A stretch of DNA of 64,000 nt from Streptomyces sp. NBC_01314. GTDB taxonomy: Bacteria > Actinomycetota > Actinomycetes > Streptomycetales > Streptomycetaceae. The position numbers were made by a program, and so were the translations under genes. Below are positions 36,883 through 58,361 of this stretch, one piece after another. The stretch is taken from positions 1,922,001 through 1,986,000 of the forward strand of contig NZ_CP108394.1 in the NCBI RefSeq assembly GCF_041435215.1. Reading direction: 5' to 3'. How positions within the stretch are numbered: the first letter of the stretch is position 1; each line of letters begins with the position of its first letter. The notes beneath the pieces were generated by a model, which was given only the letters and a program-made list of their open reading frames with translations, was not told the origin of the DNA and made no database searches.

Positions 36883-38139
36883 TCAGAGCTGATGGACGTG
36901 GGGGCCCCGCAGCCGACCCCGGGTGTCCAGTAACAGCGGGGAGTACTCGGGCAGCCGGTCAAATGGAACGGCGTCGTGATCCTGCACCAGAATCGTAAGG
37001 TCGGCGTCCGCGGCGGCATCCAATGCGTCGGCAGTCCGCTCCACCGGTTCGCCGTCCGGCGCCCAGTCGTCGACGAGAGGATCGTGATAGGTGACGTCAG
37101 TGCCGGCCTGCCGCAGCAGTCGGACGAGCGTGGCGGCCGGGGTGGCCCGCAGGTCCGTACTGTTGCGCTTGTACGTCACTCCGACAATCAGCACCCGGGC
37201 GTTCCCCAGGGTTTTTCCTCGCTGTCGCAGCAGCTGCTCGGCGCGCCGCACGACATGCGCCGGCATCGCGGCGTTGACCTCTTGCGAGAGTTCGACCAGC
37301 CTCAGCGGGGCTCCGGAAGCGCGCGCCCAGTGCGTGAGATAGACGGGGTCGACCGGAATGCAGTGCCCACCGATACCCGGACCGGGGCGGAACGCCTGGA
37401 AGCCGAAGGGTTTGGTGCGTGCGCAGTCGAGAGCGTTCCACACATCGACCCCCAGCGTGCCGGCGACGACGGCGAGTTCATTGACCAGGGCGATGTTCAC
37501 ACTTCGGTACGTGTTTTCCAGGAGCTTCGCCAGTTCGGCCTCGCGTGCGGAGCCCGCTTCCACGACCTGGTCACACAGGTGCCGGAAGAATTCGGCCGCG
37601 GCCGCCGTGCACCGTGGGGTGTAACCACCCACGACGCGCGGTGTGTTCCGGACACTGAAGGTGTCGTTCCCCGGGTCGATGCGCTCCGGGGAGAAGGCCA
37701 GGGCGAAATCTCTTCCGGCGCTGAGTCCGGAGGCCCGCTCCACAATGCTTCGCACGACGTCGTCCGTGGTCCCGGGAAAGGACGTGGATTCCAGGACGAC
37801 GAGGGTGCCGGGCTTCAGGCGATCCCCCAGGCCGCCGGCGGCGCATCGCACGTGGGAGAGGTCGGGGCTGCCCGTGTCGTCCAGTGGTGTGGGGACGCAG
37901 ATCACCGCCACTGAGGCCTCGGCCAGCAGGTTCTCGTCGGCTGACGCTCGGAAACCGGCGTCCAGCATGGCCGCCAGGTCGGCATCGGTGACATCGGGGA
38001 CGTGCGAGTGGCCCGAGTTCAGAGATGCGGTCACGGAAGGGTTGTCGTCGATCCCCATGACGCGCATGCCGGCGCGGCACGCCTCCCGTGCCAGCGGGAG
38101 ACCGGTGTAGCCAAGTCCGATGACAGCGACGCTGTACAT
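36883..38139 (-). CDS. nucleotide-sugar dehydrogenase (UDP-glucose/UDP-HexNAc 6-dehydrogenase family)
   Basis: 418 residues from the ATG at 38139, after AGGAG. NAD-binding VAVIGLGYTGLPLA (4-17), Lys205 in AELAKLLENTYR, and catalytic Cys260 in GIGGHCIPVDP are all present. It oxidises C6 of a UDP-hexose or UDP-HexNAc in two steps to the uronic acid. IPVDP after the Cys and the VNIALVNELA helix resemble the WecC/WbpA/VipA (HexNAc) group more than UDP-glucose dehydrogenase. It is the promoter-distal gene at the left end of the cluster, with 465 nt separating it from the ANL gene. Confidence 0.88.
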   Translation of the reverse strand: MYSVAVIGLGYTGLPLAREACRAGMRVMGIDDNPSVTASLNSGHSHVPDVTDADLAAMLDAGFRASADENLLAEASVAVICVPTPLDDTGSPDLSHVRCAAGGLGDRLKPGTLVVLESTSFPGTTDDVVRSIVERASGLSAGRDFALAFSPERIDPGNDTFSVRNTPRVVGGYTPRCTAAAAEFFRHLCDQVVEAGSAREAELAKLLENTYRSVNIALVNELAVVAGTLGVDVWNALDCARTKPFGFQAFRPGPGIGGHCIPVDPVYLTHWARASGAPLRLVELSQEVNAAMPAHVVRRAEQLLRQRGKTLGNARVLIVGVTYKRNSTDLRATPAATLVRLLRQAGTDVTYHDPLVDDWAPDGEPVERTADALDAAADADLTILVQDHDAVPFDRLPEYSPLLLDTRGRLRGPHVHQL

Positions 38140-38604
38140 ATCGTCTCCTGGATGCAGGGTGTTGGTGAGGAGGGGGTGGGGCTCTCCGCGCAGGGGCAGC
38201 GCTTCGGACGCCTGCGGACCGGGGCTTTGGGCGGGGTGTGGCTCGTCGAATCCGGCTGGGTAGGACGGCGGTCCGAGGACCGCCGCCGTTCTTTCCTTGC
38301 CGCACGCGTTCGGAGGCGATGGTCCGACCATCGAGGCCTTTCTCCCGGCAGCCCGTCCAGGAACCGGGCCTCGACACCCGTGCGCAGCCCCGAGTGGTAG
38401 CGCCGTTCGCATGGGCCGACGGCCTCATCCGTATGACGCGTCACCCACGGCACCACGTCACCTCGCGCCCAGAAGCAGATGGCTGTCATCCGGCGTCCTG
38501 GTGTCCCCGTAGCCCTGCGAAAGGCGCTCGTAGTCACTGCGAAGGACAGCGACGCGTTCACCGGTCGCACTTGTCATCTCGGGGGCCCCTCGTGTGGTGG
38601 ACCA
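38140..38604. other. intergenic gap between dehydrogenase and ANL genes
   Basis: No gene seen. It contains the hairpin at 38266-38285 and presumably a promoter for the NDP-sugar dehydrogenase. Confidence 0.4.
38266..38285. terminator. hairpin between ANL and NDP-sugar dehydrogenase genes
   Basis: CGGCGGTCC (38266-38274) pairs with GGACCGCCG (38277-38285). A T-rich run follows on the plus strand (38289-38299), but both neighbouring genes run leftward. It may separate the acyl-activation operon from the dehydrogenase gene. Confidence 0.4.
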
Positions 38605-40251
38605 TCAACGGACGCCGGATGTCTCGCGGGCAGCGAGCCGGGCGAGGGTGCTGCGGCAGATCTTTCCGGTGGGGCCGAGCGGCATGTCGTCGACCCGCAA
38701 CAGCAGTTCGGGGAGTTTCCGTCGTTCGAGGCCGCGCTGGGACTCCAGGAACACCGTGAGCTCCGGCAGGTCCGGTGGGCGCGCGCCCGGCGTCTCGCGG
38801 ATGCATGCGCACAGGCGCTCCCCCAGTTCCGGGTCGGGCACACCGACGCAGGCCACCTCGGCCACGGCGGAATGGGCGCTGAGTTCGCGTTCCACCTCGG
38901 CCGGGCTGATGTTGTAGCCACCTCGTACGACGATCTGCTGGAGACGGCCCAGTACATGGAGCCGGCCGTGTTCGTCCAGAAACCCGCGGTCGCCGGTACG
39001 GACCCAGCCGGTGGGAGTGCGGTACCGGGCGTCCAGGTCGGGGGCCGCCACGTAGCACAGCGGTGTCATCGGGCCTCTGGCACGGATCTCGCCGGGGTGT
39101 CCGGCCGGCACGGGGACACCGACGTCGTCGGTGACGCGGATGCGTGCCACGGCAGGGTCGGGGAGCCCGGTGCCCGTGTCGGGGAAGGCTCCTGCGCCGG
39201 CCGTGTGGCAGTTCACGCCGTCGGATGATCCGTAGACGGTGATGACGCGGCGCCCGAACCGGTCGCGGCACGCGTCGGCGGTGGCGTCCGGCAGGGCCGC
39301 GCCGCTGGACACCAGGGCCTGCAAGCCGGTGAAATCCTCCCGGGCTGTGGGTGGTTGGTCGGCGATACGGCGCAGCATCGTGGGCACGCCGAAGACGTGC
39401 GTGGGACGGTGTTCGACCATCACGCGGAGCGCCGCGGCCGGGTCGAAGGTCTCCTGCACCAGCAGGACGCCGCCGAGGGCGGCGAGCGTGACGGAGGTTC
39501 CGCAGGAGCCGAAGGAGGAGGCCAGCGGGACGAGCACGAGGTTGCGCATCACGCGGTCACCGTCGTGCAGGGCGCGTACGTAGGTGGCCCGGCCGCCGGC
39601 CATCGCGTTGTGGGAGTAGGCGACCATCTTGGGCTCCGCCTCCGAGCCGGAGGTGACCAGGATCCGGGCAGGTGCCTCGGGGTCGACCGCACGGGGCACG
39701 AAGGGCTGCCGCGCGGGCGCAGTGAGTGACTGCGCGGTGGAATGGCTTTCCCCGACGGTGAAGACCGCCTCAAGGTGGGGAAGGTGTGTGCGTGCCACCG
39801 CGTCGGAGGGATCCGTGACGATGGCCGCGCGGGCTCGGGACCGGCCCAGCAGGCTCACCGGGCCCCTGCTGCCGTGCCCCGGCGGATAGGGCAGCGCGAC
39901 GGCGCCGATGGCCGCGACCGCGAGTTCCGCGGCCACCGCCTCGCGCCCGTTCGGCAGCCGTACGGCGACGATGTCCCGTTCGCCCAGGCCGCGTTCGGCG
40001 AGCCGTGCGGCGATGTGCCGTACCCGTGCGTCGAGCCCCGCGTAGTCCACCGCACCCGCGGAGTCGATGACGGCCGTCCGGCCGGGGTGACGTTTCACGT
40101 GTCCGGAGAAGAGCGTGTACAGATCACGGTCGGGGCAGTGGCCCTGTTCGACCCAGGCGCGACGCAATGGGGCCGGTACCAGGTCACGGATTGCGACACC
40201 GGCGTTCGATGTCCATCCGGTACCGAAGTTCGATGTCCCTCCGGTTGTCAT
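38605..40251 (-). CDS. ANL-superfamily acyl-CoA synthetase / AMP-ligase (1)
   Basis: 548 residues. Adenylation motifs in order: TSGSEAEPKMV (A3, about 206-216, with Glu in place of the usual Thr), VYGSSDG (A5), TGDRGFLDEHGRLHVLGR (A7/A8) and GPTGKICR with the A10 lysine near the end. It activates a carboxylic acid as acyl-AMP and probably transfers it to CoA or a carrier. Its ATG overlaps the stop of the CoA-transferase gene by 4 nt. With a second ANL gene and the CoA transferase in the same operon, it probably loads an acyl building block. Confidence 0.88.
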   Translation of the reverse strand: MTTGGTSNFGTGWTSNAGVAIRDLVPAPLRRAWVEQGHCPDRDLYTLFSGHVKRHPGRTAVIDSAGAVDYAGLDARVRHIAARLAERGLGERDIVAVRLPNGREAVAAELAVAAIGAVALPYPPGHGSRGPVSLLGRSRARAAIVTDPSDAVARTHLPHLEAVFTVGESHSTAQSLTAPARQPFVPRAVDPEAPARILVTSGSEAEPKMVAYSHNAMAGGRATYVRALHDGDRVMRNLVLVPLASSFGSCGTSVTLAALGGVLLVQETFDPAAALRVMVEHRPTHVFGVPTMLRRIADQPPTAREDFTGLQALVSSGAALPDATADACRDRFGRRVITVYGSSDGVNCHTAGAGAFPDTGTGLPDPAVARIRVTDDVGVPVPAGHPGEIRARGPMTPLCYVAAPDLDARYRTPTGWVRTGDRGFLDEHGRLHVLGRLQQIVVRGGYNISPAEVERELSAHSAVAEVACVGVPDPELGERLCACIRETPGARPPDLPELTVFLESQRGLERRKLPELLLRVDDMPLGPTGKICRSTLARLAARETSGVR

Positions 40252-42032
40252 GAGAACTCCCAGGGCGCGAGGGGGGCCGCATACTCCCCGACGGCCAGCG
40301 CCGGGGCGAACCGCGGGTCACGCGCCAGGTCCGCGAGACTGGTGCACACCGGCGTGACGGCCAGGCCCGCCGCCGCCAGTCGGGGCAGCCAGGCCGCGGT
40401 GGCCCGCGTCCGGGCCCGGGAGACGATCTCGGCCATGCCCGCCGAGGCGCCCAGTTCGAGCGCGCGCGCGAGGCGGTCCGGCCGCTCGCGGGCCTCCGGT
40501 CCGAGCGAGAGGTACCCGTCCCGCGTACGCAGCGGACGGTCCGTCCATCCGGCCCACCGGCGCCGACGGGGAACGAGCGCGGCGGCGGAGAACAAGGAGG
40601 AGTCCACGCGTTGGCCGTCTCCGGTGCGCCGCCGCGCCAGCAGCCCGGCCAGTACGCCTTGCGCGCTGACCAGTCCGCCGAGGACATCGGTGAGCGTCAA
40701 CAGGGAGGGAGCGGGGGGCTCGTGCGCGGGGCGCACCGCGGCGGCGAGCCCGCTGTGTGCCTGGACCAGGTAGTCGGTCCCCACCGGCGGTGCCGGCCCC
40801 AGGGCATCGCCCCACCCGGACGCCCACGCGTACACCAACCCGGGGCGAACGGAGCTCAGGTCCTCGTGGTCCAGCCCCAGCTCGGCTGCCTTGCCCGGCG
40901 CCCAGTTGTGCAGGAAGACATCGGCCTCGGACACCAGCTCACGCACCTCCTGCCGTCCCTTCGCGGAGGTGAAGTCGATCTCCGTGACGGCTTTTCCGGC
41001 GTTGAGGGCGCTGAAGCGGGCCGAGCAGGTGCCTGCGAGGGGCGGTATACCGCGCATCGGGTCACCGCCCGGCGGCTCGACGCGTACGACGTCGGCGCCC
41101 AGGAGCCGCAGGACATGCCCGGCCAGGGGCCCCTGGACACGTCGTGTCGACTCGACGACCCGCAGGCCCGCAAGGGGTGCCCCCGCCGTCGGGCCCGCTC
41201 TGCGGGAGGCGCCGCCCGTACGGGGCCGGCCGATCGCGGCGCCGGCGGGTCCGGGGCACGGCGTGAGGGTCCACGGCCGCGTCACCGTCGGCGGGAGAGG
41301 GTCCTCCCGTACCGGCAGCACGGCGACTCCCGCTCGGTCCGCCGCCGCCCGGACGACGGCGTACGAGGCACGCTGCACGGTCTCCGGCAGCGCCTCGGGC
41401 AGGGAGCAGGTGGCGGTGGCGAACCGCTGCTGGAACGGCCGCCACCCACGTCCGGTCTCACGGCGGTCCACGCCGAGCCGCTGCCAGAAGTCCAGCCATC
41501 GATGGGCGTCGAGGGTTTCGAGTTCGAAGCGCACGCCGTCGGCGGAGACGAACGGGCACCCGCCGGGCGCGAGGTACGCCTCCCCTTCGACCCGGGGGTC
41601 GCTGCTTGCCGTGCCCCGCTCATGGCCGTCCTCCGCGTCGTCGCCGTCGGCGGTCGCGGCCGCGAGGTACTGGGCGAGGGCGAGCAGCGCGGCTTGGCTC
41701 ACCGAGGTCCGTACACGCGTGACATCGGCGCCCGCGGCCCGCGCGACGAGTGCCGCGCAGACTCCCTGGGCGGTGAGGACCCCCGCCACTGTGGAGGCGT
41801 AGTCGGCGGCGAGCGGGGTCGGCCGCCCGGCCGCCCGGCCGTGAACGTGCATGATCCCGCAGGCCGCCTGGACGGCGCGCTCGTCGGGCAGGGAGACAGG
41901 AAGCGGGCCCTGCCAGTCGATGTCCCACCCGACGGTGGCGGTGGCCGGATCGTCCACCAGGGCGAGCACGTGTGCCGCGACCTGGGCGGCCGCCGAGGCC
42001 GGGCCGCCGGCGCGCGGCATGTGGCGCGTCAC
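40248..42032 (-). CDS. CaiB/BaiF-type CoA transferase with an extra N-terminal CaiB-like half
   Basis: 594 residues from the GTG at 42032, whose GTGA overlaps the methyltransferase stop. The C-terminal about 370 residues are a full class III CoA transferase: LRVVESTRRVQGPLAGHVL, NWAPGKAAELGL and VGTDYLVQAHSGL, which holds the catalytic Asp. The N-terminal about 210 residues resemble the second half of another CaiB protein (ACGIMHVHGR, GVLTAQGVCAALVAR), so the protein is 150-200 residues longer than standard enzymes. The extra half may replace the second subunit of the usual interlocked dimer. It moves CoA between acids, or has been adapted to lyase/racemase chemistry. Confidence 0.82.
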   Translation of the reverse strand: MTRHMPRAGGPASAAAQVAAHVLALVDDPATATVGWDIDWQGPLPVSLPDERAVQAACGIMHVHGRAAGRPTPLAADYASTVAGVLTAQGVCAALVARAAGADVTRVRTSVSQAALLALAQYLAAATADGDDAEDGHERGTASSDPRVEGEAYLAPGGCPFVSADGVRFELETLDAHRWLDFWQRLGVDRRETGRGWRPFQQRFATATCSLPEALPETVQRASYAVVRAAADRAGVAVLPVREDPLPPTVTRPWTLTPCPGPAGAAIGRPRTGGASRRAGPTAGAPLAGLRVVESTRRVQGPLAGHVLRLLGADVVRVEPPGGDPMRGIPPLAGTCSARFSALNAGKAVTEIDFTSAKGRQEVRELVSEADVFLHNWAPGKAAELGLDHEDLSSVRPGLVYAWASGWGDALGPAPPVGTDYLVQAHSGLAAAVRPAHEPPAPSLLTLTDVLGGLVSAQGVLAGLLARRRTGDGQRVDSSLFSAAALVPRRRRWAGWTDRPLRTRDGYLSLGPEARERPDRLARALELGASAGMAEIVSRARTRATAAWLPRLAAAGLAVTPVCTSLADLARDPRFAPALAVGEYAAPLAPWEFS

Positions 42033-42880
42033 CGGGTCTCCTCCGCGCGCGGCCGCCAAGCGCCTTTCCCTTCTTCGGCCCGCGGTCGGCGACCGTGTAC
42101 CGAGTAGATGACGCTGGACGTGGCGCAGAACGACGGATCCCGCATCAGCGCGCGTACGTTCCTCAGCTGCGCCTCGGTCATGCCCGCGGCGATGAGCTTG
42201 TCCTGCAGGTGGTAAGTGTGGTTGAGCTGCAACCGCAGGCCGGGCGATCCTGCGGTACGCAGTTCGATGCGGGGCCGTGGGTCGATGTCGACGAGCCCCG
42301 CGGCACGCATGGCGGTCGGCGCGCGCCGGCCCCACTGGGGGTCTCCGCCACCGGCCCGCATGACGGCGCACTTGGTGTCGAGGAAGGCCGCGTAGAGCCG
42401 CGCGGACACCTCGTCGGGGGTGAGCAGGGGCGGTTCGTAGGAGGTGTCGAACTCCTCGATGTGGAGCCACCCGCCGGGCTTGAGGGCGCACACCAACTTG
42501 TCGAGAACGGCGAGGCGTTCGGGCAGGTGCTGGAGTACGAGACGGGCGACGACGAGGTCGAAGGACGCCTCCGGGAGGGGATCGGTCACCACGTCGTGCT
42601 CGACCGCGGTCAGGCACGGCCGTCGCGGGATGTGGTGCGGTTTGACGTCGGTGGCCATGACCTCGCCGGTGGGAGCGACGCGTTCGGCGAGCCACTGGGC
42701 CACACTCCCGCTTCCGGAACCGATCTCCAGGCACCGCCATCCGCTGGTGACACCGGTCTCGGCGAGCCGTGCGAAGGTCATGGCGTCGTAGGCCTCGGTG
42801 AGGCAGCGGTGCAGTTCGTAGCTGTGCACGTTGTCGTTGTCGAAGACGTAACCGGGGTCCTCGGCCAGGAACTGACGCAT
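42029..42880 (-). CDS. SAM-dependent methyltransferase (class I)
   Basis: 283 residues from the ATG at 42880, preceded by GGGGAGAG; an upstream ATG at 42913 overlaps the preceding gene and has no such site. SAM-binding motif I CLEIGSGSGSVAQWL at about 50-64, acidic residue in VMATDVKPHHI, and post-motif FDLVVARLVLQHLPE and LKPGGWLHIEEFD. The C-terminal region is not informative about the acceptor. Embedded between ANL and CoA-transferase genes, it probably O- or N-methylates the acyl or aromatic intermediate. Confidence 0.88.
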   Translation of the reverse strand: MRQFLAEDPGYVFDNDNVHSYELHRCLTEAYDAMTFARLAETGVTSGWRCLEIGSGSGSVAQWLAERVAPTGEVMATDVKPHHIPRRPCLTAVEHDVVTDPLPEASFDLVVARLVLQHLPERLAVLDKLVCALKPGGWLHIEEFDTSYEPPLLTPDEVSARLYAAFLDTKCAVMRAGGGDPQWGRRAPTAMRAAGLVDIDPRPRIELRTAGSPGLRLQLNHTYHLQDKLIAAGMTEAQLRNVRALMRDPSFCATSSVIYSVHGRRPRAEEGKGAWRPRAEETR

Positions 42881-42903
42881 GTTCTCTCCCCCTTTTTCCC
42901 GTC

Positions 42904-44496
42904 TCAGGTCCATCGGCCGGAGCCGTAGGTGTCCGTACGTCCGGTGAGGCGGTGCAGCAGTTCCCTGCGCCGGACCTTTCCGGTGCCGGTGCGTGGCACT
43001 TCGTCCCAGGTGAGGGCGACCGGTTCACGCAGGGGCGGCAGACCACGCACTGCTTCCTTCCAACCGGCCTGGTCCAGAAGGCCGTCGGCGGTGACCACGA
43101 CCGGCAGCGGATCCTGGTCCGGATCGGCGAGGACGACACACTCCAGGGCCTGCGGCAACCGGGCTTCCAGGACGTCCTCGGTACGCAGACAGCTGAGCTG
43201 CGGCGTGCGGTCGACCTCGCGGTCGAGCAGTTCGATACTTCCGTCGCGGTTGCGGGCGCCGATGTCGCCTGTGTTCCACCACATGCCGTGCCGCTTGGCC
43301 GACCAGCGGTCTTCCTCGCCGATGTAGCCCAGGGCGCAGGCGGCGGTCCTGGCCAGTACCAGACCCGCCTCCCCCCGGGGCAGGGGCCGGAAGGTGTCGG
43401 GATCGACCACCCGCAGCCGCGTCTTCAGCGGCACCGGACGTCCCAGATTGCGGCTGCCGGCCCCACCCGACGCCTTGTGTGCCGACTGGCGGGTGTGGAA
43501 ACGGAAGGTCAGCGGGCCCGTCTCGGTCTGCCCCCACCCCTCCACCCACACCGGACGGGGGTGCCTGCTCGCCGTGAGGTAGGCGCGGACCGTGGGGGGA
43601 TGCATGGCGTCGTACGTACTGATGACCGTGCGGACGCGACGGAAGGGGTTGTCCAGCCCTTCGGTCAGCGGCAGGAAGCGGACGAACGAGGCGGGCAGTG
43701 CCTCGAGGACGGTCGGCGGATGGGCGCGCAGCACCGGGTCCGCGAGGTACGGGTCCTGTGTGGTGATGATCGAGATCTCGGCGGGGGCCATGCACAGGGT
43801 GCTCGCGGTCCAGCAGAACGTCCTGCCGTGGGAGAACGCGCTGGCGTTGACCAGGGTGTCGCTGCGTCGCAGGCCGATGCGCGGCAACCGCACGCTCTCG
43901 AACCGCGCCAACTTGCCGATGATCGTGCGCGTCGAGTGCGTCACCAGCTTGGGAACGCCGGTGGTGCCCGAGGTGTGGTTGATCACCAGGGGCTCGTCGT
44001 CGTGCCTGCGGTGCGGCCCGGGGGCGGTGTGCCCGCGTACCTCGTCCATGCCCAACGTCCCGGGCGCGGCGCCGTCCAGAACCAGGGTCACGCGTGCGGC
44101 CGCGGCAAGGTCGGTGCCCTCCTTCCTGCCGCGCTCCAGCACATCGGCCGTCGTGACGAGCAGAGCGGGACCGAGCCGGGCCAGCAGTGTTCCCAGCGCC
44201 TCGCCCGACAGGTGCGCGGACAGCTGCGCGGGAACGGCGCCGACGCGCACGGCCGCGCAGGCCAGCAGGTCGTAGTCCCAGTGATTGTCCTTGACGATCG
44301 CCACCCGGTCGCCCGGCGCCGCCCCGGCGGCGGCCAGCCAGCCCGCTGCCTCCTGTACGAGCGCGGCGAGTTGGGGGATCGTGTAGTGGGTCCGGGCGCC
44401 CCCGTCGATGTCGAAGGGCCGGTCCAGGTACACCCGGGTGCCGATCCGGTGTTCGGCACACTCGTCGAACAGGACGCCCATGTCATGCGGTTTCAC
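42904..44496 (-). CDS. ANL-superfamily acyl-activating enzyme (2)
   Basis: 530 residues from the GTG at 44496, which has GGAGG 6 nt upstream. HTSGTTGVPKLV (A3, near 180), GWGQTETG (A5), NTGDIGARNRDGSIELLDR (A7/A8) and PRTGTGKVRRREL with the A10 lysine are all intact. It is diverged from the 38.6 kb ligase and has a canonical core, so the two probably activate different acids or act at different stages. It is the first gene of the leftward ANL/methyltransferase/CoA-transferase/ANL operon, with 250 nt separating it from the flavoprotein gene. Confidence 0.88.
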   Translation of the reverse strand: MKPHDMGVLFDECAEHRIGTRVYLDRPFDIDGGARTHYTIPQLAALVQEAAGWLAAAGAAPGDRVAIVKDNHWDYDLLACAAVRVGAVPAQLSAHLSGEALGTLLARLGPALLVTTADVLERGRKEGTDLAAAARVTLVLDGAAPGTLGMDEVRGHTAPGPHRRHDDEPLVINHTSGTTGVPKLVTHSTRTIIGKLARFESVRLPRIGLRRSDTLVNASAFSHGRTFCWTASTLCMAPAEISIITTQDPYLADPVLRAHPPTVLEALPASFVRFLPLTEGLDNPFRRVRTVISTYDAMHPPTVRAYLTASRHPRPVWVEGWGQTETGPLTFRFHTRQSAHKASGGAGSRNLGRPVPLKTRLRVVDPDTFRPLPRGEAGLVLARTAACALGYIGEEDRWSAKRHGMWWNTGDIGARNRDGSIELLDREVDRTPQLSCLRTEDVLEARLPQALECVVLADPDQDPLPVVVTADGLLDQAGWKEAVRGLPPLREPVALTWDEVPRTGTGKVRRRELLHRLTGRTDTYGSGRWT

Positions 44497-44717
44497 CTGA
44501 GGCCTCCGAGGATGCCTGGGCGAAAGACCGCCCAAGCGGTCGGGTGAGCTGACCGCCGTGCATTGCGAGAACCAAGCGCGTACGCCGTGCTGAGCGAGAA
44601 CCAGGACAGCACATGCACCTCCAAGCTTTGCCGTATCGAACCGGGCTGGTTTCAACCCGGCTGGTGTTGACCGTGGAAGACCTGTCGGGTCGCTGACCCG
44701 CAGGCAGCGTGAGCCAG

Positions 44718-44748
44718 GAATCCCCCTGCTTCAGCTGGGGGAGGATTC
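44718..44748. repeat. IS200/IS605-end-like hairpin, copy 1
   Basis: GAATCCCCCTGCT ... AGCTGGGGGAGGATTC forms a stem with one bulge and one mismatch around a TC loop. This GAATCC-C-rich stem-CTTCAGC style hairpin is what I know from the ends of IS200/IS605-group elements next to tnpB genes in actinobacteria; none is present here. It overlaps the stop codon of the flavoprotein gene and may now serve as its terminator. A similar hairpin occurs at 58414-58439. Confidence 0.5.
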
Positions 44749-51059: not shown

Positions 51060-51096
51060 GGGGCCGCTCCGAGCGTCTTGCGCTCGGAGCGGCCCC
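51060..51096 (-). terminator. terminator of the EF-hand 2 gene
   Basis: Perfect 16-bp inverted repeat, GGGGCCGCTCCGAGCG at 51060-51075 and complement at 51081-51096, with a TCTTG loop, 17 nt past the stop codon. Confidence 0.75.
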
Positions 51097-51113
51097 TGCC
51101 GCCGGCGTGCGGC

Positions 51114-51653
51114 TCAGACACCCAGAAGAGGGGCGTCGAGTTCGCCCGCGTGGTACTGACCCACCGCGGCCACGAGTTCCTCGACGGACAGTTGCCCGTT
51201 ACCGTCCGCGTCCACCTTGCGGAACGCCTCGTCCGCGTCGATCCGGTTGTCACCGATGGCACCGAGCCACGTCCGGAACTCTTGCGGATTGACCTGCCCG
51301 TCGCCGTCGACGTCGCACAGGTCGACCATCGCGCGGATGCTCGGGCGGAGCATGGTGCCGAAGCCGGCCGCGCCGGCGCTCAGCATCTGGGTGTCGGCGA
51401 TCTCGATGAACTGTTCCAACGACAGGGTCTGATCGGCGGCGATGCCGGCCTCTCGCGTCATGTGGTCCCACATGTGCGGGTACTCGTGCAGCAACGCCCG
51501 GGCCTTGGGAGAGTCCTCCGACTCGCCGAAAGCGCGGACGATACGCCGGGCCTCCTCCTCCAGGTCATGGCGCCCGATACGTCCGTCCTCGTCGGTGTCG
51601 TAGAGCTCGAAACGCTGCCGGAGACGCTCGACCTGCGCTGTCTTGTTGGACAT
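51114..51653 (-). CDS. EF-hand calcium-binding protein, calerythrin-like (2)
   Basis: 179 residues from the ATG at 51653 after GAGGAG. Loops at 19-30 (DTDEDGRIGRHD), 114-125 (DVDGDGQVNPQE) and 148-159 (DADGNGQLSVEE) are canonical; the second hand is degenerate. It is a clear paralogue of the 49.8 kb protein, with the same hand pattern throughout and the shared C-terminal YHAGEL/YHSGEL. Duplication of a calcium-binding gene around a membrane-protein gene is unusual. It diverges from the Gfo/Idh operon with a 0.6-kb control region between them. Confidence 0.92.
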   Translation of the reverse strand: MSNKTAQVERLRQRFELYDTDEDGRIGRHDLEEEARRIVRAFGESEDSPKARALLHEYPHMWDHMTREAGIAADQTLSLEQFIEIADTQMLSAGAAGFGTMLRPSIRAMVDLCDVDGDGQVNPQEFRTWLGAIGDNRIDADEAFRKVDADGNGQLSVEELVAAVGQYHAGELDAPLLGV

Positions 51654-52269
51654 CTCACTCCTCGTTCTCGAAAGGGCTGCGGAGAAAACCGGCCGCCTCG
51701 CGCCGAAACCTTGGAGATCGAAGGATCTCCTTTCCAGAATTCCAGAGGAATCAAAAATCCCGAGGGGATGACCAAGTAATCGACCGCACCATGCAGGGCA
51801 AAACCGCATGCCCTGTGCAAGATACATGAGTACTAGCAATCTTCGCCGCCTGTCAACGGGGGTACGTAACCGGCAGGCCGCAGAAACATTTCCTCGGATT
51901 CTCGACCAACTCTTGATGGCCGATTGTCTTCGCCCGCAGGTTCGACCGAGTGGACGGGTGGGGCTCATGAGAGTCTGCCCACCGAGCCGGACGGACCGCA
52001 CAGTCACCGTGGACGTGATTTTCGAGCCATCTCCTCACCAGTCGGCGAGTGCGGTGAATAAATACGTGGAAGGTCGCCAATAGATACGGTGCGACGAACC
52101 CGCGCTCATGCAACCGACGCCTCGCTCGAAAAAATTCCGCGAAGTGCGTCGTGCGCGTTTCAGGGGAAGAAGAGATGGGCATGCCGAACATTTTCATACT
52201 AATTCGCCGACCTGCTCCCGGAAAAACTCGAGCCGACGCTACGAACCAGTCGAAGAGGTGGGTCGAGGA
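51654..52269. promoter_or_regulatory. divergent control region between EF-hand 2 and the rightward sugar operon
   Basis: About 615 nt, AT-richer than its neighbours and without a convincing gene. GGAGATC (51713-51719) and GATCTCC (51724-51730) form a small GAAG-loop hairpin in the EF-hand 2 leader. The region presumably contains promoters for both directions. Confidence 0.45.
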
Positions 52270-53316
52270 GTGCTGCGTACGTTGATCGTCGGCCTGGGCC
52301 GCGCGGGCCTGGGACTGCATGTGCCGGTGCTGAGGCGTACGCGTGCCACAGCCGTGGACACGTTCGCCGATCACCCGATCGTGGGGGTGGACCCCGAACA
52401 TTCCTCGCTTGACCGGCAGCGGGAAGACCTCCTGATCGTCGATTCCCTGCGTCGAGCACGCGAACTCCTCGACCCGGCGCATACGGTCGTCCACCTGTGC
52501 ACCCCGCCCGCCGTACGCGCCGAGGTGCTCCGCGAGGTCGCCGAGCTCGGCTTCCGGCGGATCCTCCTGGAGAAACCGCTGGCCGGTGACCGGGGCGCGC
52601 TCCAGACCGTCCTGCATCTCGCGCGGGCGCACGAGCTGCGACTGTCAGTGGTGGCACCCTGGCTGCACAGCGCGCTGACGCAGTGTCTCGTCCAGATCGT
52701 GGCCGACGGGAGCCTCGGCGCGGTCCGCTCCGTGTCCGTCACCCAGCACAAGCCCCGGTTCCGGCGCTCTCTCGGCAGCAGCAGCCACACCTCCGCCTTC
52801 GACGTGGAGGCACCGCATGCGGTGGGCGTCCTCCTGCGCCTCCTGGGGGACGCCCAGGTATGCGGCGCCGCCTGCGCCGACCTGCAGGTGGCGGAGGTGA
52901 CAGTGCCCCGCATGGGCGGTATGCGCCTGGAACTGCTGCACGACGGCGGGGCCCGGAGCGAGGTGGTGTCCGACCTGTCCTCGCCGGTACGTCAGCGGCG
53001 AATCGTGCTCGACATGGCGGGCGGCAGTGTCGTCGGACACTACGCGGTCGGCCAGAACGACGACTTCGCTCAGCTGGAGATCACCCGCGATGGCAGCACC
53101 GTGCGTGAGGTCCTTCGTGACGACTCCCTCACCTCCTGTCTGACCCGTGCCTACCGCCGCTTCGTCGATGACGCCGACACCGACGACCTCGACCTGCACG
53201 TACGGACGGTCCAGTTGCTCGACGAAGCGAAGCGGCTGGCGGCAGACGGGCACGAGGTCGTGCCGCCGCACGACGGCCGGACGGCTCGCAAGGAGGCGAC
53301 CATCCATGGGAGTTGA
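52270..53316 (+). CDS. Gfo/Idh/MocA-family oxidoreductase (1)
   Basis: 348 residues from the GTG at 52270. NAD(P)-binding VGLGRAGLGLH (7-17) is followed by VHLCTPPAV and ILLEKPLAGD, whose Glu-Lys-Pro carries the catalytic lysine of the family. The C-terminal alpha/beta domain is present (QHKPRFRRSL, DVEAPHAVGVLLRLLG). Enzymes of this family oxidise or reduce a ring hydroxyl/ketone of sugars, nucleotide sugars or inositols. It is the first gene of the rightward six-gene operon and overlaps the isomerase-like gene by 11 nt. Confidence 0.87.
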   Translation: MLRTLIVGLGRAGLGLHVPVLRRTRATAVDTFADHPIVGVDPEHSSLDRQREDLLIVDSLRRARELLDPAHTVVHLCTPPAVRAEVLREVAELGFRRILLEKPLAGDRGALQTVLHLARAHELRLSVVAPWLHSALTQCLVQIVADGSLGAVRSVSVTQHKPRFRRSLGSSSHTSAFDVEAPHAVGVLLRLLGDAQVCGAACADLQVAEVTVPRMGGMRLELLHDGGARSEVVSDLSSPVRQRRIVLDMAGGSVVGHYAVGQNDDFAQLEITRDGSTVREVLRDDSLTSCLTRAYRRFVDDADTDDLDLHVRTVQLLDEAKRLAADGHEVVPPHDGRTARKEATIHGS

Positions 53317-54271
53317 CTCCCCCTTCGGATCAGACCCTCTGCACCCCCCGTACGGCGTGCCCGAGGACGACCCCGTCGGGCGGGCGGCTCCCGGCGTCCG
53401 TTTCGCGGGAATCGGGGACGAGGCCGCGGTGGATCTCGCCGGGCAACTGGATGCCCTGCATCAACTCCGCTGGAAAACAATCGAGTTGCGTAACGTCGAC
53501 GGCGTCGCGGTCGCCGACCTGGACGACCGGGCCTTCGCCGCCCTGACCGAGCGGATCGCGGCAGCGTGCCTCGATGTCGTCTGCGTCGATTCCCGGATCG
53601 CCAACTGGAGCCGCCCGATCACCGGCCGCTTCGAGGACGACGTGGCGGAGCTACGGGTGCTGGCCTCGCGTTGCGCCACCCTGGGCACTCGGTATGTCCG
53701 GGTGATGTCCTACCCCAACGCCGGCCTGGACGAGGAGAAGTGGGGCAGGCAGGTGCTGGACCGGATGGCTCTCCTGGTCCGCCAGGCCGAGCAGTACGGG
53801 CTGGTGCTGCTGCACGAGAACTGCAGCGGCTGGGCCGGAACCCGGGCCGACCGGATGTTGGACCTCCTCGACCGCGCCGACAGCCCCGCGCTGCGGCTGC
53901 TGTTCGACATCGGCAACGGCGTCCCCCACGGCTACGACACCCGCGCGCTGCTGGGCACCGTCATCGACCATGTCGCTCACGTACACGTCAAGGACGCCCG
54001 CACCGGACCGGACGGCCATGTCACCTACACGCTGCCCGGGGAGGGGCAGTCCGAGGTGTCCGCCTGCCTGCGGGCCCTCCTCGACCACGGCTACACCGGG
54101 GCCCTGTCGATCGAACCGCACACCCACCTGCGGCCGCACCAGGATCACGACACCACGGGTACCGACAGTGTGGCGGCGTTCGTCAGTTACGGCCGGTCCC
54201 TGGAGCGCCTCGTGCGGCAGGAAATCGTGGCTGCCCGCACCTCCGCCGCCGGTGGGGTGCCGCATGCCTGA
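53306..54271 (+). CDS. sugar phosphate isomerase/epimerase-like TIM-barrel protein
   Basis: 321 residues from the ATG at 53306, 9 nt after AGGAGG. AP-endonuclease-2-type TIM barrel: metal-binding Glu in LLHENCSGW, Asp/His in LFDIGNG and VHVKDA, and Glu in ALSIEPHTH. This family includes xylose-isomerase-like epimerases, inosose dehydratase IolE and 3-keto-glycoside lyases. Between two Gfo/Idh dehydrogenase genes, the keto-sugar or inosose substrates of IolE-like enzymes are the most plausible. The start lies inside the preceding gene; the end overlaps the M20 hydrolase start by 8 nt. Confidence 0.85.
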   Translation: MGVDSPFGSDPLHPPYGVPEDDPVGRAAPGVRFAGIGDEAAVDLAGQLDALHQLRWKTIELRNVDGVAVADLDDRAFAALTERIAAACLDVVCVDSRIANWSRPITGRFEDDVAELRVLASRCATLGTRYVRVMSYPNAGLDEEKWGRQVLDRMALLVRQAEQYGLVLLHENCSGWAGTRADRMLDLLDRADSPALRLLFDIGNGVPHGYDTRALLGTVIDHVAHVHVKDARTGPDGHVTYTLPGEGQSEVSACLRALLDHGYTGALSIEPHTHLRPHQDHDTTGTDSVAAFVSYGRSLERLVRQEIVAARTSAAGGVPHA

Positions 54272-55706
54272 CCTCCCGACCCGGCTGCCTCCCCCACCCG
54301 ACTCCGCTGCCGCTCCCCTGCTGCGTCCCGCACGGCTGACGCCAGCCGACCACGACCTGCTGCTCGACCTCCTCGACACCCCCACAGCCGGTCCGCTGGA
54401 GTCGGACGGTGACGGCCCCACCGCTCGCCTGTGGGAGGCCGGACGGACCTATGCCACGGCTGCCGCGGCGGTCGGTCTGAGGGTGCTGCGTCACGCCCCG
54501 GCGAAACCAGAGGTGCTGCGCCGGGACGACGTACCCCTGATGGTTCGGGAGGCGGCGAAGGACGAGACGTTCCTGGCCCGGCAGCCCAACCTGGTGCTGC
54601 GCCTCGGGCCGGAACTCCCGCGGCAGGACACGGTGATGTTCAACGTCCACCTGGACACGGTGGCCGGGTGGTGGCCGGCCCGTTTCGACGGACGGCGCTT
54701 CACCGGGCGCGGGGCGATCGACGCCAAGGGCCCCGCCGTCGCATTGCTCGCCGGCATTCGGGCAGCCCGCGCGGCCGAACCGGCCCTGGGCAGCCGGATC
54801 GGCGTGCTCATCCAGGCGGTCGCGGGCGAGGAAGGCGGCGCCATGGGTACGTTCGGTACCCGGCCGCTGGTGGAGGAGGGGTTCACGGGCGGGCTGAACC
54901 TGTTCTGTGAGCCCACCGGGCACCGGTTCCTGCCCCGTTCCACGGCGTCCATGACTGCCTGCGTAAGCGTTCGGGGTGAGGACGCGGTGGACGACCGCCC
55001 CGAGGCCGGGCACAACGCGACCGTGCTGCTGGGGCACATCGGCCACTACCTGGCCCGCGCCCTGCCACCGCGAATCGGCGACGGCAAAGTGTGCGTGGCA
55101 GGCCTGCACACCGGCGAACGGCACAACCGGGTCTACGGCACCGGCCGACTGCTGCTCAACGTCTCCTACGGCTCCCGGCAGACCGGCCGAGCCGCCGAAC
55201 GCGTGCTGGGGCAGGCGTTGCGTAAGGCGCTCGCCGACTTCTCCGCCGGGGCCGCCGGCACCCGTGACCTGGCCAGGACGGCCGCTGACGCGACACGGAT
55301 CACGTCTTTGCACTGGTACAAGCGGGGCCTGCCCGCACTGGACGGCCGGGGTCGCGCGCCGTGGGCCGAGGAACTGCTGGAACGACGCGCGGGCCTGGTG
55401 CGCTGGCCCGACGAAGAGCCGGCCTTCACCTGCGACGCCATCTGGATGGACGGCGTCCCCGACAGCTACACCGCGGTCTTCGGCCCCGGCGACCTGCACA
55501 CCAACCACGCGCACGCCGACGGCGAATACGCCGACCTGGACGACTTGGACCGGTACGCCGACGACATCGCCCGCGTACTCGTCGCACGCGTCCGCCACCC
55601 GCCGCACGACGGCGAAGCCACCCACGACGACGGCGCCGCCGAAGCACCTCACGCTCACTCAGCGGTCGCGCCCGGCGCGGCCACGGACAGGATCTCTCCC
55701 CGATGA
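54264..55706 (+). CDS. M20-family metallohydrolase (ArgE/DapE-like)
   Basis: 480 residues from the ATG at 54264. Zinc ligands are in order: NVHLDTVAGWW (His129, catalytic Asp131), GAIDAKGPAV (bridging Asp near 153), VAGEEGGAMGT (catalytic Glu and ligand Glu near 190), an Asp/Glu-rich CEPTG segment, and a C-terminal HTNHAHADGEY. It cleaves an amide: N-acyl removal from an amino acid or amino sugar is the usual chemistry. In an operon with aminotransferases nearby it may remove an N-acyl protecting group late in biosynthesis. The C-terminal His/Asp-rich tail is unusual. Confidence 0.85.
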   Translation: MPDLPTRLPPPPDSAAAPLLRPARLTPADHDLLLDLLDTPTAGPLESDGDGPTARLWEAGRTYATAAAAVGLRVLRHAPAKPEVLRRDDVPLMVREAAKDETFLARQPNLVLRLGPELPRQDTVMFNVHLDTVAGWWPARFDGRRFTGRGAIDAKGPAVALLAGIRAARAAEPALGSRIGVLIQAVAGEEGGAMGTFGTRPLVEEGFTGGLNLFCEPTGHRFLPRSTASMTACVSVRGEDAVDDRPEAGHNATVLLGHIGHYLARALPPRIGDGKVCVAGLHTGERHNRVYGTGRLLLNVSYGSRQTGRAAERVLGQALRKALADFSAGAAGTRDLARTAADATRITSLHWYKRGLPALDGRGRAPWAEELLERRAGLVRWPDEEPAFTCDAIWMDGVPDSYTAVFGPGDLHTNHAHADGEYADLDDLDRYADDIARVLVARVRHPPHDGEATHDDGAAEAPHAHSAVAPGAATDRISPR

Positions 55707-56920
55707 CCTCGCCGACTTCCCCGACAACTGCAACTGCAACTACCACTGCCACGAGGGCTGTGCCGATCCTTTCCGACCCATGCCTCGTACCACCCCGGCC
55801 CCCCGGCAACTCCGGGGTGCGGGTGCCGTACCGGGAACTCGTCGCCTTCGTGGCCGATGTCTTCGGTGCCAGGGGCATCCCGGAGGAGCGCGCAGGAGCG
55901 GCTGCCGAGGCGCTGTGCCACGGCGACCTGACGGGTTTCACCAGTCACGGCATCACCAATCTCACCCGCCTCTACCTGCCGCTGCTCGACACGGGCCGGT
56001 GCGACCCGCGGGCCGAGCCGCGGATCGTCGCCGACCACGGGGCCTCGGTTCTTCTCGACGCTCGCCGGGCGCTCGGGCTGTGGGCGGCCGCCGAGGCGAT
56101 GGACCTCGCGGTCGAGCGCGCCCGCCGGTACGGGGTCGGTATGGTCTCGGTGCGTGGCGCCACACACTTCGGCTGCGCGGGTCACCACGCCCTGCGCGCG
56201 GTCCAGCACCACATGGTGGGCCTGGTCACCGCCAACTGCGGCCGACAGCAGATCGTCCGCCCCGTCGGCGGACGGGCCCCCATGCTCGGCACCAACCCCC
56301 TCGCGCTGGCCGCCCCGGCCGGTGATCGGCCGCCCTTCGTCCTGGACATGGCCACCACCGTGGCCCCCACCGGCAGAGTCCGGGCCGCGGCACGCGCAGG
56401 GCAGAGCGTGCCCGCGGGCTGGCTGCGGGACGACGACGGCACGCCGGTCACCGACCCGGCGGCCTTCGACCGCGGCCAGGCGCACCTGAGCTGGCTCGGC
56501 GGTGACCCCGACGCCGGTGTCTACAAGGGCTATGGCCTGGGCCTGCTGGTGGAGGTGCTGTCCGCACTCGTCCCCGGAGCCGGACTCGGCCCGCACGAGA
56601 AGACGGCTGAGCCCGTCGGCCCCGACGACGACATCGGCTGCCTCATGCTGGCCATCGCCCCTGGGCGGCTCCGGCCCGAGGCGGAGTTCCTCACCGATGC
56701 GGCCGGCCTGTTCGGCGCCCTCCTCGGCTGCCCGCCGATCCGGGCGGACGAGCCGGTGTGTTACCCCGGCTGGCCCGAGGACGCCCGCTGTCGCGACCGA
56801 CGCGCCCACGGCGTGCCGCTCGCGGCGGCCCTGCACCAGGAGATGCTCGACCTGGCCCGGAACAGCAGCCTCCGCTTCCCGGCACCGGCGGAACCCACCG
56901 AGGAGGGAAGCCCGGCATGA
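55703..56920 (+). CDS. Ldh_2-family (malate/L-lactate dehydrogenase-type) oxidoreductase
   Basis: 405 residues from the ATG at 55703, ATGA-overlapped with the M20 gene. After a Thr/Ala-rich N-terminal extension of about 40 residues, the YlbC/ComC-type fold shows HGDLTGFTSHGITNL with the catalytic His, GATHFGCAGHHAL and NPLALAAPAG. The family is unrelated to classical LDH/MDH and includes NAD(P)-dependent 2-oxo-acid, ureidoglycolate, diketogulonate and imine (delta1-piperideine-2-carboxylate) reductases. Here it may reduce an oxo acid or cyclic imine formed from the M20 product. The substrate is unknown. Confidence 0.85.
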   Translation: MTSPTSPTTATATTTATRAVPILSDPCLVPPRPPGNSGVRVPYRELVAFVADVFGARGIPEERAGAAAEALCHGDLTGFTSHGITNLTRLYLPLLDTGRCDPRAEPRIVADHGASVLLDARRALGLWAAAEAMDLAVERARRYGVGMVSVRGATHFGCAGHHALRAVQHHMVGLVTANCGRQQIVRPVGGRAPMLGTNPLALAAPAGDRPPFVLDMATTVAPTGRVRAAARAGQSVPAGWLRDDDGTPVTDPAAFDRGQAHLSWLGGDPDAGVYKGYGLGLLVEVLSALVPGAGLGPHEKTAEPVGPDDDIGCLMLAIAPGRLRPEAEFLTDAAGLFGALLGCPPIRADEPVCYPGWPEDARCRDRRAHGVPLAAALHQEMLDLARNSSLRFPAPAEPTEEGSPA

Positions 56921-57864
56921 CCGTCCCCCGCGTCGGCCTCATCGGCCTCGGCGTCATCTCCCGCTTCTACCTGGCCGCGTTCGAACGCGAGGCGTGCGCG
57001 CGGCTGGTGGCCGTATGCGACCCCGACGAGGACCGGCTCGCCACCGCACCACCGCAGGTGTCGCGCTACCGCGACCACCGCGAGCTGCTGCGGGCGGCGA
57101 ACCTGGACGCTGTGGTGGTCAACGTGCCCAACGACCTGCACTACCCGGTGTGCAGGGATGCGCTGGAGGCCGGACGCGCGGTGTGCGTGGAGAAGCCGCT
57201 CGCCACGAAGCCGTCCGATGCCCACCACCTCCTGCGACTCGCCCAGCACAGCGGCACCATGCTGTTCACCTCTTTTCACCGCCGCTACAACAGGGAGGTG
57301 AACGCCCTCCGCGACCGCATCGCCTCCGCCGCGCCGATCACTTCGCTGACAGTGCGCTACGAGGAGACGATCGAGGAACACGCCGGACAGGACCGCTGGT
57401 ATCTCGACCCGGAACGCTGTGGAGGCGGCTGTGTCGCCGACAACGGGCCCAACGCGTTCGATCTGGTCCGCCTGTTCCTCGGCGACGTCCAGGTGGCCGA
57501 CGCCGCCGTGCACCGCGATGCGCACGGCGTCGACCGGCAGGCGCAGGTGCTGCTGGATGCCCCGTCCGGCGCGGCGGCAGGGGTCGTGCTCGACTGGTCC
57601 TGTCCCGGTGAGCGCAAAACGGTTGAGGTGCGACTCGCCGACGGGACCGTGGACCGTGCCGACATGCTCGCGGGCCATCCGGAGTTCAAAGGGTCCCTCT
57701 GGCACGAGTACGTGGGCGTGCTGCGGGACTTCACCGACATCCTGGCCGGCCGCCGCCCGAACGATCCCGGCGGCCTGGCCGCCCTGGAGCTGGTGACCGC
57801 CACGTACGCGCGTGAACGCGCCGACCGACCCCGTCGTCCCCGACAGGAGGCCCCCCGGACATGA
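56917..57864 (+). CDS. Gfo/Idh/MocA-family oxidoreductase (2)
   Basis: 315 residues from the ATG at 56917, overlapping the Ldh_2 stop by 4 nt. VGLIGLGVISRFYL (6-19) is the NAD(P) motif; VNVPNDLHYPV and CVEKPLATKP follow, with the catalytic Lys. FHRRYNREV and DNGPNAFDLVRLFLGDV belong to the substrate domain. It is clearly distinct from the first copy, so the operon has two ring-dehydrogenation/reduction activities, a pattern seen where a hydroxyl is oxidised, modified or aminated, and another position is then reduced. Confidence 0.88.
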   Translation: MTVPRVGLIGLGVISRFYLAAFEREACARLVAVCDPDEDRLATAPPQVSRYRDHRELLRAANLDAVVVNVPNDLHYPVCRDALEAGRAVCVEKPLATKPSDAHHLLRLAQHSGTMLFTSFHRRYNREVNALRDRIASAAPITSLTVRYEETIEEHAGQDRWYLDPERCGGGCVADNGPNAFDLVRLFLGDVQVADAAVHRDAHGVDRQAQVLLDAPSGAAAGVVLDWSCPGERKTVEVRLADGTVDRADMLAGHPEFKGSLWHEYVGVLRDFTDILAGRRPNDPGGLAALELVTATYARERADRPRRPRQEAPRT

Positions 57865-58361
57865 CACCAGGAGAGGACGGGGCCAAACGCGCCGTACACG
57901 GGCAGTTGGTGAAGGTGCTCACCCACCGGCGTGATGACCGGGGCATGGCGCTGGAGGAGTTCGCGAGCCGGTGTGTCCGCCGTGGTGAGGTGCATGAGCT
58001 GGTGACCACCGACCAGACGGAGACCACTGCCGGCGCCCGGATCGACCGGGTCGGCTTTCTGGGTTTCGTGGAGATCGGATGCGCCGGGGTGATCGACCGA
58101 GGCGATGCGGTCTGGACGAACGGCGACCGGGTGGGGACGGTTCTGGGATTCGACGCCTGTCACTTCCCGAACCACTACAACATCCTCATCTCGGTGCCCG
58201 AACCGCTCACCGGCCCGCAGCTCGGTCTCGCACCCGAGATGGAGGTTCGGTTCGAGCAGCGGGCGGGAGTGCCACGTCCGCCCCGCGGCCCTGGTCCACC
58301 GTCCACTGACGACCGACAGCCCGATGCCCGATGCCCGATCACCAGGAGCGCCCGCCCATGA
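57861..58361 (+). CDS. uncharacterised protein, last gene of the rightward operon
   Basis: 166 residues from the ATG at 57861, overlapping the previous stop by 4 nt. It contains no catalytic motif I can name. Segments that look structured and conserved are KRAVHGQLVKVL, EEFASRCVRRGEVHELVTTD, GARIDRVGFLGFVE and GTVLGFDACHFPNHYNILI. The Pro-rich last 35 residues look disordered. A beta-rich fold with Cys and His near FDACHFPNHY could bind a ligand or metal, but this is a guess. Tight coupling to the Gfo/Idh gene argues for a role in the same pathway. Confidence 0.75.
   Translation: MTPGEDGAKRAVHGQLVKVLTHRRDDRGMALEEFASRCVRRGEVHELVTTDQTETTAGARIDRVGFLGFVEIGCAGVIDRGDAVWTNGDRVGTVLGFDACHFPNHYNILISVPEPLTGPQLGLAPEMEVRFEQRAGVPRPPRGPGPPSTDDRQPDARCPITRSARP

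Follow-up and report, generated by a model that had tools for sequence, protein, structure and literature searches.

We have identified a conserved gene cluster in a 64,000-nucleotide stretch of Streptomyces sp. NBC_01314 (contig NZ_CP108394.1, positions 1,922,001 to 1,986,000; hereafter the window), whose genome measures 11.35 Mb. The cluster comprises 18 genes in two diverging runs at positions 36883-58361 of the window, is real and conserved, and no described product was found for it. We judge the chances to be about even that it consists of two nearly obligately paired, separately evolving cassettes, termed S and P, which make an amino-uronic-acid meroterpenoid. Gene content, conservation, cassette structure, co-occurrence, conserved motifs and the isoprenoid genes of related loci were observed; an amino-uronic-acid meroterpenoid is the most likely product, for which we infer every substrate, the order of steps, the prenyl acceptor and the joining bond.

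The leftward run reads, in order, UGD, ANL1, CaiB, MT, ANL2, FAD, UbiA, DegT2, DegT1, EF-hand a, a small membrane protein and EF-hand b, and the rightward run Gfo1, AP2, M20, Ldh2, Gfo2 and DUF6917. Families were assigned with Pfam and NCBIfam in 30 mechanically called open reading frames (ORFs) between 32.8 and 64 kb, a set from which small genes may be missing and to which all negative family searches of the window refer. An earlier note on this DNA had proposed a cluster of sugar, acyl-activation and prenylation genes of no known product, a description that holds. Every family that it named is present at its place, and its two diverging runs stand, with 18 genes instead of about twenty; Ldh2, DUF6917, the two EF-hand proteins and the small membrane protein had gone unnamed. 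Its statement that polyketide synthases (PKS), non-ribosomal peptide synthetases (NRPS) and classical glycosyltransferases are absent agrees with the scan, in which no ketosynthase, condensation or glycosyltransferase family was matched at E ≤ 1e-3.

GTDB genomes were scanned with the window UbiA protein and the best 80 matches were kept, corresponding to 78 distinct loci in Streptomyces, Saccharopolyspora, Actinokineospora, Streptomonospora, Streptosporangium and other genera; the closest UbiA proteins come from Streptomyces. Genes in the fetched loci were called with a GC-frame script of our own rather than a published program. Presence was scored by tblastn at a cut of 50 bits, within 10-kb flanks that cut off distal genes and with counts open to cross-matches between DegT1 and DegT2 and between ANL1 and ANL2. 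The P genes FAD, ANL2 and MT were found in 77, 77 and 75 of the 78 loci, and the S genes in 74 (DegT1), 74 (DegT2), 70 (Gfo1), 67 (AP2), 66 (M20), 60 (Ldh2), 48 (Gfo2) and 44 (DUF6917); CaiB, ANL1 and an EF-hand gene were found in 43, 46 and 48, respectively. When the 78 loci and the window were clustered by gene family, the cluster's own families occurred in 40-79 of the 79 gene sets (ANL1 in 41) and any other family in at most ten. The search for conserved synteny that the earlier note had proposed finds the same set, in similar local order, in other genera, which is more than chance would give.

The leftward and rightward arms form one system, because DegT1 is present in 74 of the 78 UbiA loci and because the genomes with a close DUF6917 are nested within those with a close UbiA. 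The four loci without DegT1 (L042, L054, L074 and L075, two of which are contigs under 5 kb) come from genomes in which DegT1 lies beyond the fetched flanks, at 63-70% identity, and three of these four genomes also have M20, so the possibility that the arms never co-occur elsewhere is rejected. At E ≤ 1e-3, UbiA was matched in 36 and DUF6917 in 33 of 295 Streptomyces genomes, the two 295-genome draws being taken as one set from their coinciding handles. With cuts chosen after the lists had been seen (UbiA at least 200 bits, DUF6917 at least 179 bits), the 26 genomes with DUF6917 all fall within the 27 with UbiA (hypergeometric p = 2e-36); nine of the 36 UbiA-positive and seven of the 33 DUF6917-positive genomes lay below the cut, none of them with the partner gene above its own. 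The two genes lie within 20 kb on one contig in 22 of the 26 genomes, and in G003, G012, G047 and G623 both are present, apart or on different contigs. Those four unlinked cases, together with the partly separate inheritance of the cassettes described below, could be expected of two unrelated clusters that happen to be neighbours; even where unlinked, however, both cassettes share a genome, and this disfavoured reading is barely credible.

The division into two cassettes comes from a distance-correlation test on the 41 of 79 gene sets that hold all ten core genes (40 loci and the window; 820 pairs), in which shared descent forms part of the signal. Among the 210 possible splits into four and six genes, the best separates UbiA, FAD, ANL2 and MT from DegT1, DegT2, Gfo1, AP2, M20 and Ldh2, with a mean r of 0.90 within cassettes and 0.74 between them (pairwise r 0.85-0.95 inside P, 0.80-0.93 inside S and 0.58-0.84 between). 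Splitting by strand gives a difference of only 0.03, barely better than none. The evolutionary boundary lies between DegT2 and UbiA and not at the putative divergent promoter, and the two strands do not hold up as functional units, since DegT1 and DegT2 evolve together with genes of the rightward run. The ten-gene test leaves out DUF6917, Gfo2 and UGD. UGD tracks S where comparable (r 0.91-0.93, 19 sets), and the distances of DUF6917 fit S and, on a narrower set, CaiB and ANL1, with which it had been placed by a first clustering that set missing pairs to distance 1. Fusions within the S module join Gfo2 to DUF6917 (L141) and AP2 to M20 (L156). CaiB and ANL1 are each other's best correlate (r 0.94); both are absent, with another FAD enzyme instead, from L069, L090 and seven Actinokineospora loci (Pfam-tested in L090).

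Identities to the window indicate that the cassettes have been exchanged between loci. In L069 and L090, where S. violens and S. ochraceiscleroticus each carry a second copy, the S genes are 64-84% identical overall (DegT, Ldh2, Gfo2 and DUF6917 78-84%), versus 54-57% for UbiA, FAD and ANL2. L023 is the reverse mosaic, with S genes at 42-71% and P genes at 71-74%. Such a history bears on whether the cluster might serve a cell-envelope glycolipid or primary lipid pathway instead of a specialised metabolite. The wide spread across genera would fit a lipid, as would the UbiA superfamily itself, which includes the lipid-forming DGGGP and DPPR synthases (PMC5133447, in the portion available), and the best NCBIfam match of the window UbiA, the prenyltransferase model PRK12884, which scores far below its cut-off. 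The mosaic cassettes, the two copies in some strains and a plasmid-borne cluster amid AfsA-type, SARP and P450 genes point the other way, as does the patchy distribution, DUF6917 being present in about one in nine of the Streptomyces genomes and in one of 396 genomes drawn across the phylum, the window's own. We consider an envelope lipid improbable.

Catalytic motifs are conserved in cassette S, namely the pyridoxal phosphate (PLP) lysine of both DegT proteins, EKP in both Gfo/Idh proteins, the E/D/H/E pattern of AP2, the M20 metal-ligand motifs and the cysteine region of UGD. The nearest solved relatives of UGD are an annotated uridine diphosphate (UDP)-N-acetylmannosamine dehydrogenase and Cap5O, then CalS8, which we take to be of the nucleoside diphosphate (NDP)-glucose type; the UGD motif GGHCiPvDP, conserved in 18 sequences, presumably occurs in both the N-acetylhexosamine (HexNAc) and the glucose types. 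For both DegT proteins the nearest solved structures include 2oga (presumably DesV; 251 bits for DegT1 and 215 bits for DegT2), 7b0d, QdtB and WbpE, with NtdA too for DegT1. Deposited as a glutamine--scyllo-inositol transaminase, 7b0d ranks second for both, and 2-deoxy-scyllo-inosose aminotransferases score below 2oga (138-150 bits for DegT1, 126-138 for DegT2). By sequence, both DegT proteins appear nearest to 3-keto NDP-sugar aminotransferases. Gfo2 matches WbpB weakly (3o9z, 3.5e-9). The AP2 model (pLDDT 95) is a xylose-isomerase-type barrel, with isomerases, epimerases and dehydratases at similar Z among its fold relatives, including IolE, AsbF, mannonate dehydratase and 2-hydroxy-3-keto-glucal hydratase. 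That hydratase, and the presence of DgpA among the solved relatives of Gfo2, recall a catabolic system in which Gfo/Idh proteins and AP2 would cleave 3-keto-glycosides in the manner of DgpA and DgpBC, with transport and degradation. Against this stand enzymes of biosynthesis, namely two aminotransferases, an NDP-sugar dehydrogenase, UbiA and the ligases, and no transporter is among the conserved families of the clustered loci. DgpB is not among the matches listed for DUF6917, an absence that decides little. Catabolism is a very unlikely role.

Under the biosynthetic reading, cassette S (UGD, Gfo1, DegT1, DegT2, AP2, M20, Ldh2, Gfo2 and DUF6917) would turn a nucleotide sugar into an amino-uronic acid block, and we infer that this block serves for condensation. 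UGD would oxidise C6 of the NDP-sugar, one Gfo/Idh-DegT pair would oxidise and aminate C3 as WbpB and WbpE do, and AP2 would carry out an isomerisation or dehydration. The other Gfo/Idh-DegT pair would perform a second round of oxidation and amination, Ldh2 would reduce an imine or 2-oxo acid, and M20 would remove an N-acyl group. WbpA, WbpB and WbpE belong to the Pseudomonas O antigen route to UDP-2,3-diamino-uronic acids. The analogy to that route, drawn in the earlier note, fits by sequence class (a 6-dehydrogenase apparently of HexNAc-like class, Gfo/Idh with EKP, and DegT near 3-keto-sugar aminotransferases including WbpE), but neither WbpD-type acetyltransferase nor WbpI-type epimerase (2-epimerase) families were found in the scanned ORFs. 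Unlike that route, the window adds M20, Ldh2, AP2, DUF6917 and a second Gfo/DegT pair, and it has no polysaccharide genes. Aminocyclitol pathways such as those to streptidine and spectinomycin pair dehydrogenases with DegT enzymes, and the window shares this paired Gfo/Idh and DegT logic; it differs from them in having an NDP-sugar 6-dehydrogenase and DegT relatives that are mostly of sugar rather than inosose type.

Distant S cassettes (32-54% identity) keep other company. L154 and L169 carry TrpC, TrpB, TrpA, TrpE, GATase and Glycos_transf_3 (TrpD-type) genes, all Pfam-tested, and L155 has the same gene order with a TrpE-like gene; these loci possibly make an undescribed indole or anthranilate product. 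UGD accompanies the S cassettes with tryptophan sets. Three small S-type loci are suited to finding the S product: L156, with an exporter of the major facilitator superfamily (MFS); L158, with an ATP-grasp amino-acid ligase (LAL_C2), an MFS protein and a FemAB-like protein that narrowly misses its cut-off; and L157, in which a 43% identical DUF6917 stands beside an ATP-grasp ligase (LAL_C2), an FAA hydrolase and an MFS protein, with no other S gene. The LAL_C2 ligases of L157 and L158 speak for amide chemistry in the neighbourhood of distant S genes.

In cassette P, both aspartate-rich UbiA motifs (DD.TG.rDGSD and NtnD..GD) are conserved in 78 sequences. The P-loop and the C-terminal lysine motif PRTgTGKVRR are conserved in ANL2, a protein with no close solved relative (best 8ztz, 4e-23). 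UbiA, FAD, MT and ANL2, here joined by ANL1 and CaiB, would prenylate, oxidise and methylate an acceptor and activate a carboxylate as an adenylate. ANL2 would then join the prenylated acid to the amino-uronic acid, most simply as an amide, which by analogy with XimA is our first choice for the bond. XimA, likewise of the ANL family, forms an amide in vitro, acting after UbiA-type prenylation, and its xiamenmycin cluster (XimA-E) combines it with a UbiA-type prenyltransferase as the window does (PMC4053376, in the portion available); by sequence, the window ANL2 may form an amide or a thioester. The five xim genes include a chorismate lyase and an epoxidase and, unlike the cluster in the window, no sugar genes, according to the same portion. 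No chorismate lyase, which would supply 4-hydroxybenzoate, was matched by Pfam in the scanned ORFs, a search to be read with the fact that XimC itself matched only an un-annotated ORF.

Isoprenoid genes accompany more distant P loci. DXS lies near them in six genomes (L136, L139, L144, L162, L163 and the NBC_00490 plasmid), IspG near L136, L144, L162 and L102, and polyprenyl synthases near L099, L136, L140, L144 and others, adjoining the cluster in six Actinokineospora loci. L136 has a DUF6917-DXS fusion, and a gene annotated dxs on the NBC_00490 plasmid contains a DUF6917 match, at a distance of 24-30 kb from a run of DegT1, DegT2, MT, UbiA, ANL2 and UGD. In L171 (genome G012) a Pyr4-type transmembrane terpene cyclase lies between the ANL2 and FAD homologues. 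For the window itself, isoprenoid supply is extrapolated from these loci through UbiA homology. In four genomes (L099, L100, L137 and L142) UbiA, MT or both have a BenE benzoate-type transporter as neighbour, a hint of an aromatic acid acceptor. Several loci have further neighbours. L096 holds a UbiA, ANL2 and FAD trio with no S genes close by; a protein of lantibiotic-dehydratase-N type and a PALP enzyme are in its vicinity, and the S cassette of its genome is on another contig (L135). Six Actinokineospora loci (L073, L077, L082, L086, L087 and L093) have Family 2 encapsulin shell genes (SrpI-like, with a cNMP domain; Pfam-tested in L077) and a polyprenyl synthase within a few kb of the cluster, and in L068 and L070 the same shell family adjoins a terpene synthase gene (tested in L068). 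Such cargo types of encapsulins are described in PMC8346489, in the portion available.

The acceptor is the point at which a different assignment of labour must be considered. S may itself make the prenyl acceptor, by converting the amino-uronic sugar into a ring, of the pyranone, pyridone or cyclitol type, for prenylation by UbiA, with no need of a shikimate or polyketide aromatic acid. S and P are nearly obligate partners, a tie closer than an optional decoration would lead one to expect; the cluster has no gene recognised as forming an acceptor; the dehydratases of the AP2 fold family would suit such chemistry; and DUF6917 is fused to DXS as described above. Against this, distant S cassettes with no UbiA stand beside amino-acid ligases or tryptophan genes, as expected of a condensation block, the BenE transporters, with a further match in L020, hint at an aromatic acid, and none of the enzymes in this set is known to us to aromatise a sugar. 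We put the likelihood of a sugar-derived acceptor at roughly one chance in four.

Several observations weigh against the amino-uronic-acid meroterpenoid that we prefer. It is drawn from genes, and the cluster has no gene clearly supplying a prenyl acceptor and no glycosyltransferase that was found. The C3 specificity of the DegT proteins would follow from their nearest relatives only. UGD was detected in 41 of the 78 loci by tblastn, many copies being lost to the 10-kb flanks. The loci with DXS, IspG or BenE mostly carry a UbiA only about 41-48% identical to that of the window, and the fetched flanks of close, window-type relatives hold none of the three except for the one BenE match. To these are added the after-the-fact choice of bit-score cuts and one exception, genome G727, the one of the 27 left over, where a 43% identical UbiA has IspG and an NDP-hexose 2,3-dehydratase as near neighbours; it has no S cassette, M20 was not matched in it, and DegT was matched only weakly.

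No description of the cluster was found among the matches listed in the open-licence PubMed Central (PMC) full text (titles and abstract starts), and the term DUF6917 occurs in no paper of that full text. Homologue names, where given, are generic among the best 120 of 569 UbiA and the best 120 of 756 DUF6917 matches. The nearest published relatives in logic that we found, judged from the portions available, are the ebo operon and the zig cluster. The ebo operon (PMC5133447) likewise combines a UbiA-superfamily enzyme with a xylose-isomerase-like barrel, and an isoprenoid-cyclitol product is proposed for it in that paper. Among its six proteins are a sugar phosphate cyclase and a phosphate hydrolase, with no aminotransferase, Gfo/Idh or ligase in the portion available. 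Neither the EboD sugar phosphate cyclase family nor the EboF phosphodiesterase-type hydrolase family was found in the scanned ORFs. The zig (zigralone) cluster, a Pyr4-type meroterpenoid cluster (PMC13307353), has a UbiA-like prenyltransferase, a polyprenyl synthase, methyltransferases and an aminotransferase, and shares its Pyr4-type cyclase with the P-cassette relative L171. Unlike the window, it starts from tryptophan and has a thiamine pyrophosphate (TPP) enzyme, P450s and, in the gene list given there, no NDP-sugar gene.

Features of the cluster and its surroundings in the window are listed in the table. The true start of UGD is probably near 38150, since the Rossmann domain begins at amino acid 95 of the ORF. 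In CaiB the second half retains the GTD motif, at whose place E stands in the first half, in an alignment read by eye.

Table. Positions of cluster genes and adjoining features in the window (start codons of UGD, ANL2, Gfo1, AP2, M20 and Ldh2 are approximate).
Feature	Position	Strand	Remarks
Tyrosine integrase, adjoining cluster, outside pathway	35136..36272	-	
UGD, NDP-sugar 6-dehydrogenase	36883..38412	-	UDPG_MGDP_dh; TIGR03026 E 1.6e-114
ANL1, acyl-adenylate/CoA ligase, optional sub-cassette with CaiB	38605..40251	-	AMP-binding; motifs conserved
CaiB, double class III CoA-transferase	40248..42032	-	CoA_transf_3, two stretches
MT, class I S-adenosylmethionine methyltransferase (P)	42029..42913	-	
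ANL2, adenylate-forming enzyme (P)	42904..44655	-	AMP-binding; start uncertain
FAD, Amino_oxidase/CrtI/HpnE-like flavoprotein (P)	44747..46126	-	start is first Met ahead of FAD motif
UbiA-superfamily prenyltransferase (P)	46123..47100	-	both Asp-rich motifs conserved
DegT2 aminotransferase (S)	47235..48359	-	PLP lysine conserved
DegT1 aminotransferase (S)	48356..49591	-	PLP lysine conserved
EF-hand protein a	49761..50291	-	start GTG 50291
Small hydrophobic (membrane) protein	50519..50965	-	no Pfam match
EF-hand protein b	51114..51653	-	
Divergent intergenic region between leftward and rightward transcripts	51654..52107	.	read directly from sequence
Gfo1, Gfo/Idh/MocA oxidoreductase (S)	52108..53316	+	EKP motif; start uncertain
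AP2, xylose-isomerase/IolE-like TIM barrel (S)	53396..54271	+	AP_endonuc_2; E/D/H/E metal-ligand pattern; start approximate
M20 metallo-amidohydrolase (S)	54309..55706	+	start approximate
Ldh2 family dehydrogenase/imine reductase fold (S)	55811..56920	+	start approximate
Gfo2, Gfo/Idh/MocA oxidoreductase (S)	56917..57864	+	EKP motif
DUF6917 beta-barrel protein	57861..58361	+	put with S by gene order and fusions

The cluster is flanked by the integrase and by an alcohol dehydrogenase (58691-59761). The integrase is a possible island mark; no tRNA gene is present in the window. An 84% identical integrase also adjoins the cluster in L032 (S. ureilyticus), where most cluster genes are only about 55-68% identical. 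The EF-hand proteins a and b, which we take to be calerythrin-like, have conserved C-terminal tails and are conserved with the cluster, with no obvious enzymatic role. Homologues of the small membrane protein lie between the EF-hand genes in L018, L019, L021 and L026, and L022 has one next to its DegT genes. DUF6917 is a predicted beta barrel, weakly like EF-Tu domain II, with R37, C38, E43, H45, H101, H105 and other residues invariant in 57 aligned homologues. Outside Actinobacteria, a 40% identical DUF6917 occurs on a Thermomicrobium roseum plasmid (L168), between a proline racemase and a TPP-binding protein.

About one in ten genomes of the genus has the UbiA/DUF6917 gene pair (26-27 of 295), and homologues of both (P0160 and P0111) are present in the genome of Saccharopolyspora erythraea NRRL 2338, a strain that has been studied intensively. 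A cluster lacking PKS, NRPS and glycosyltransferase genes may be missed by rule-based finders. The cassette definition predicts one S building block common to several product families, with P, tryptophan genes or amino-acid ligases as partners. Few genes would suffice to test for the S product, which should also aid in finding what DUF6917 does. Tentatively, the cluster may represent an undescribed actinobacterial class of meroterpenoids, in which the polar head, and possibly the prenyl acceptor, would be built from a nucleotide sugar rather than from shikimate or polyketide precursors, through a portable S cassette that is paired elsewhere with tryptophan or peptide-ligase chemistry.

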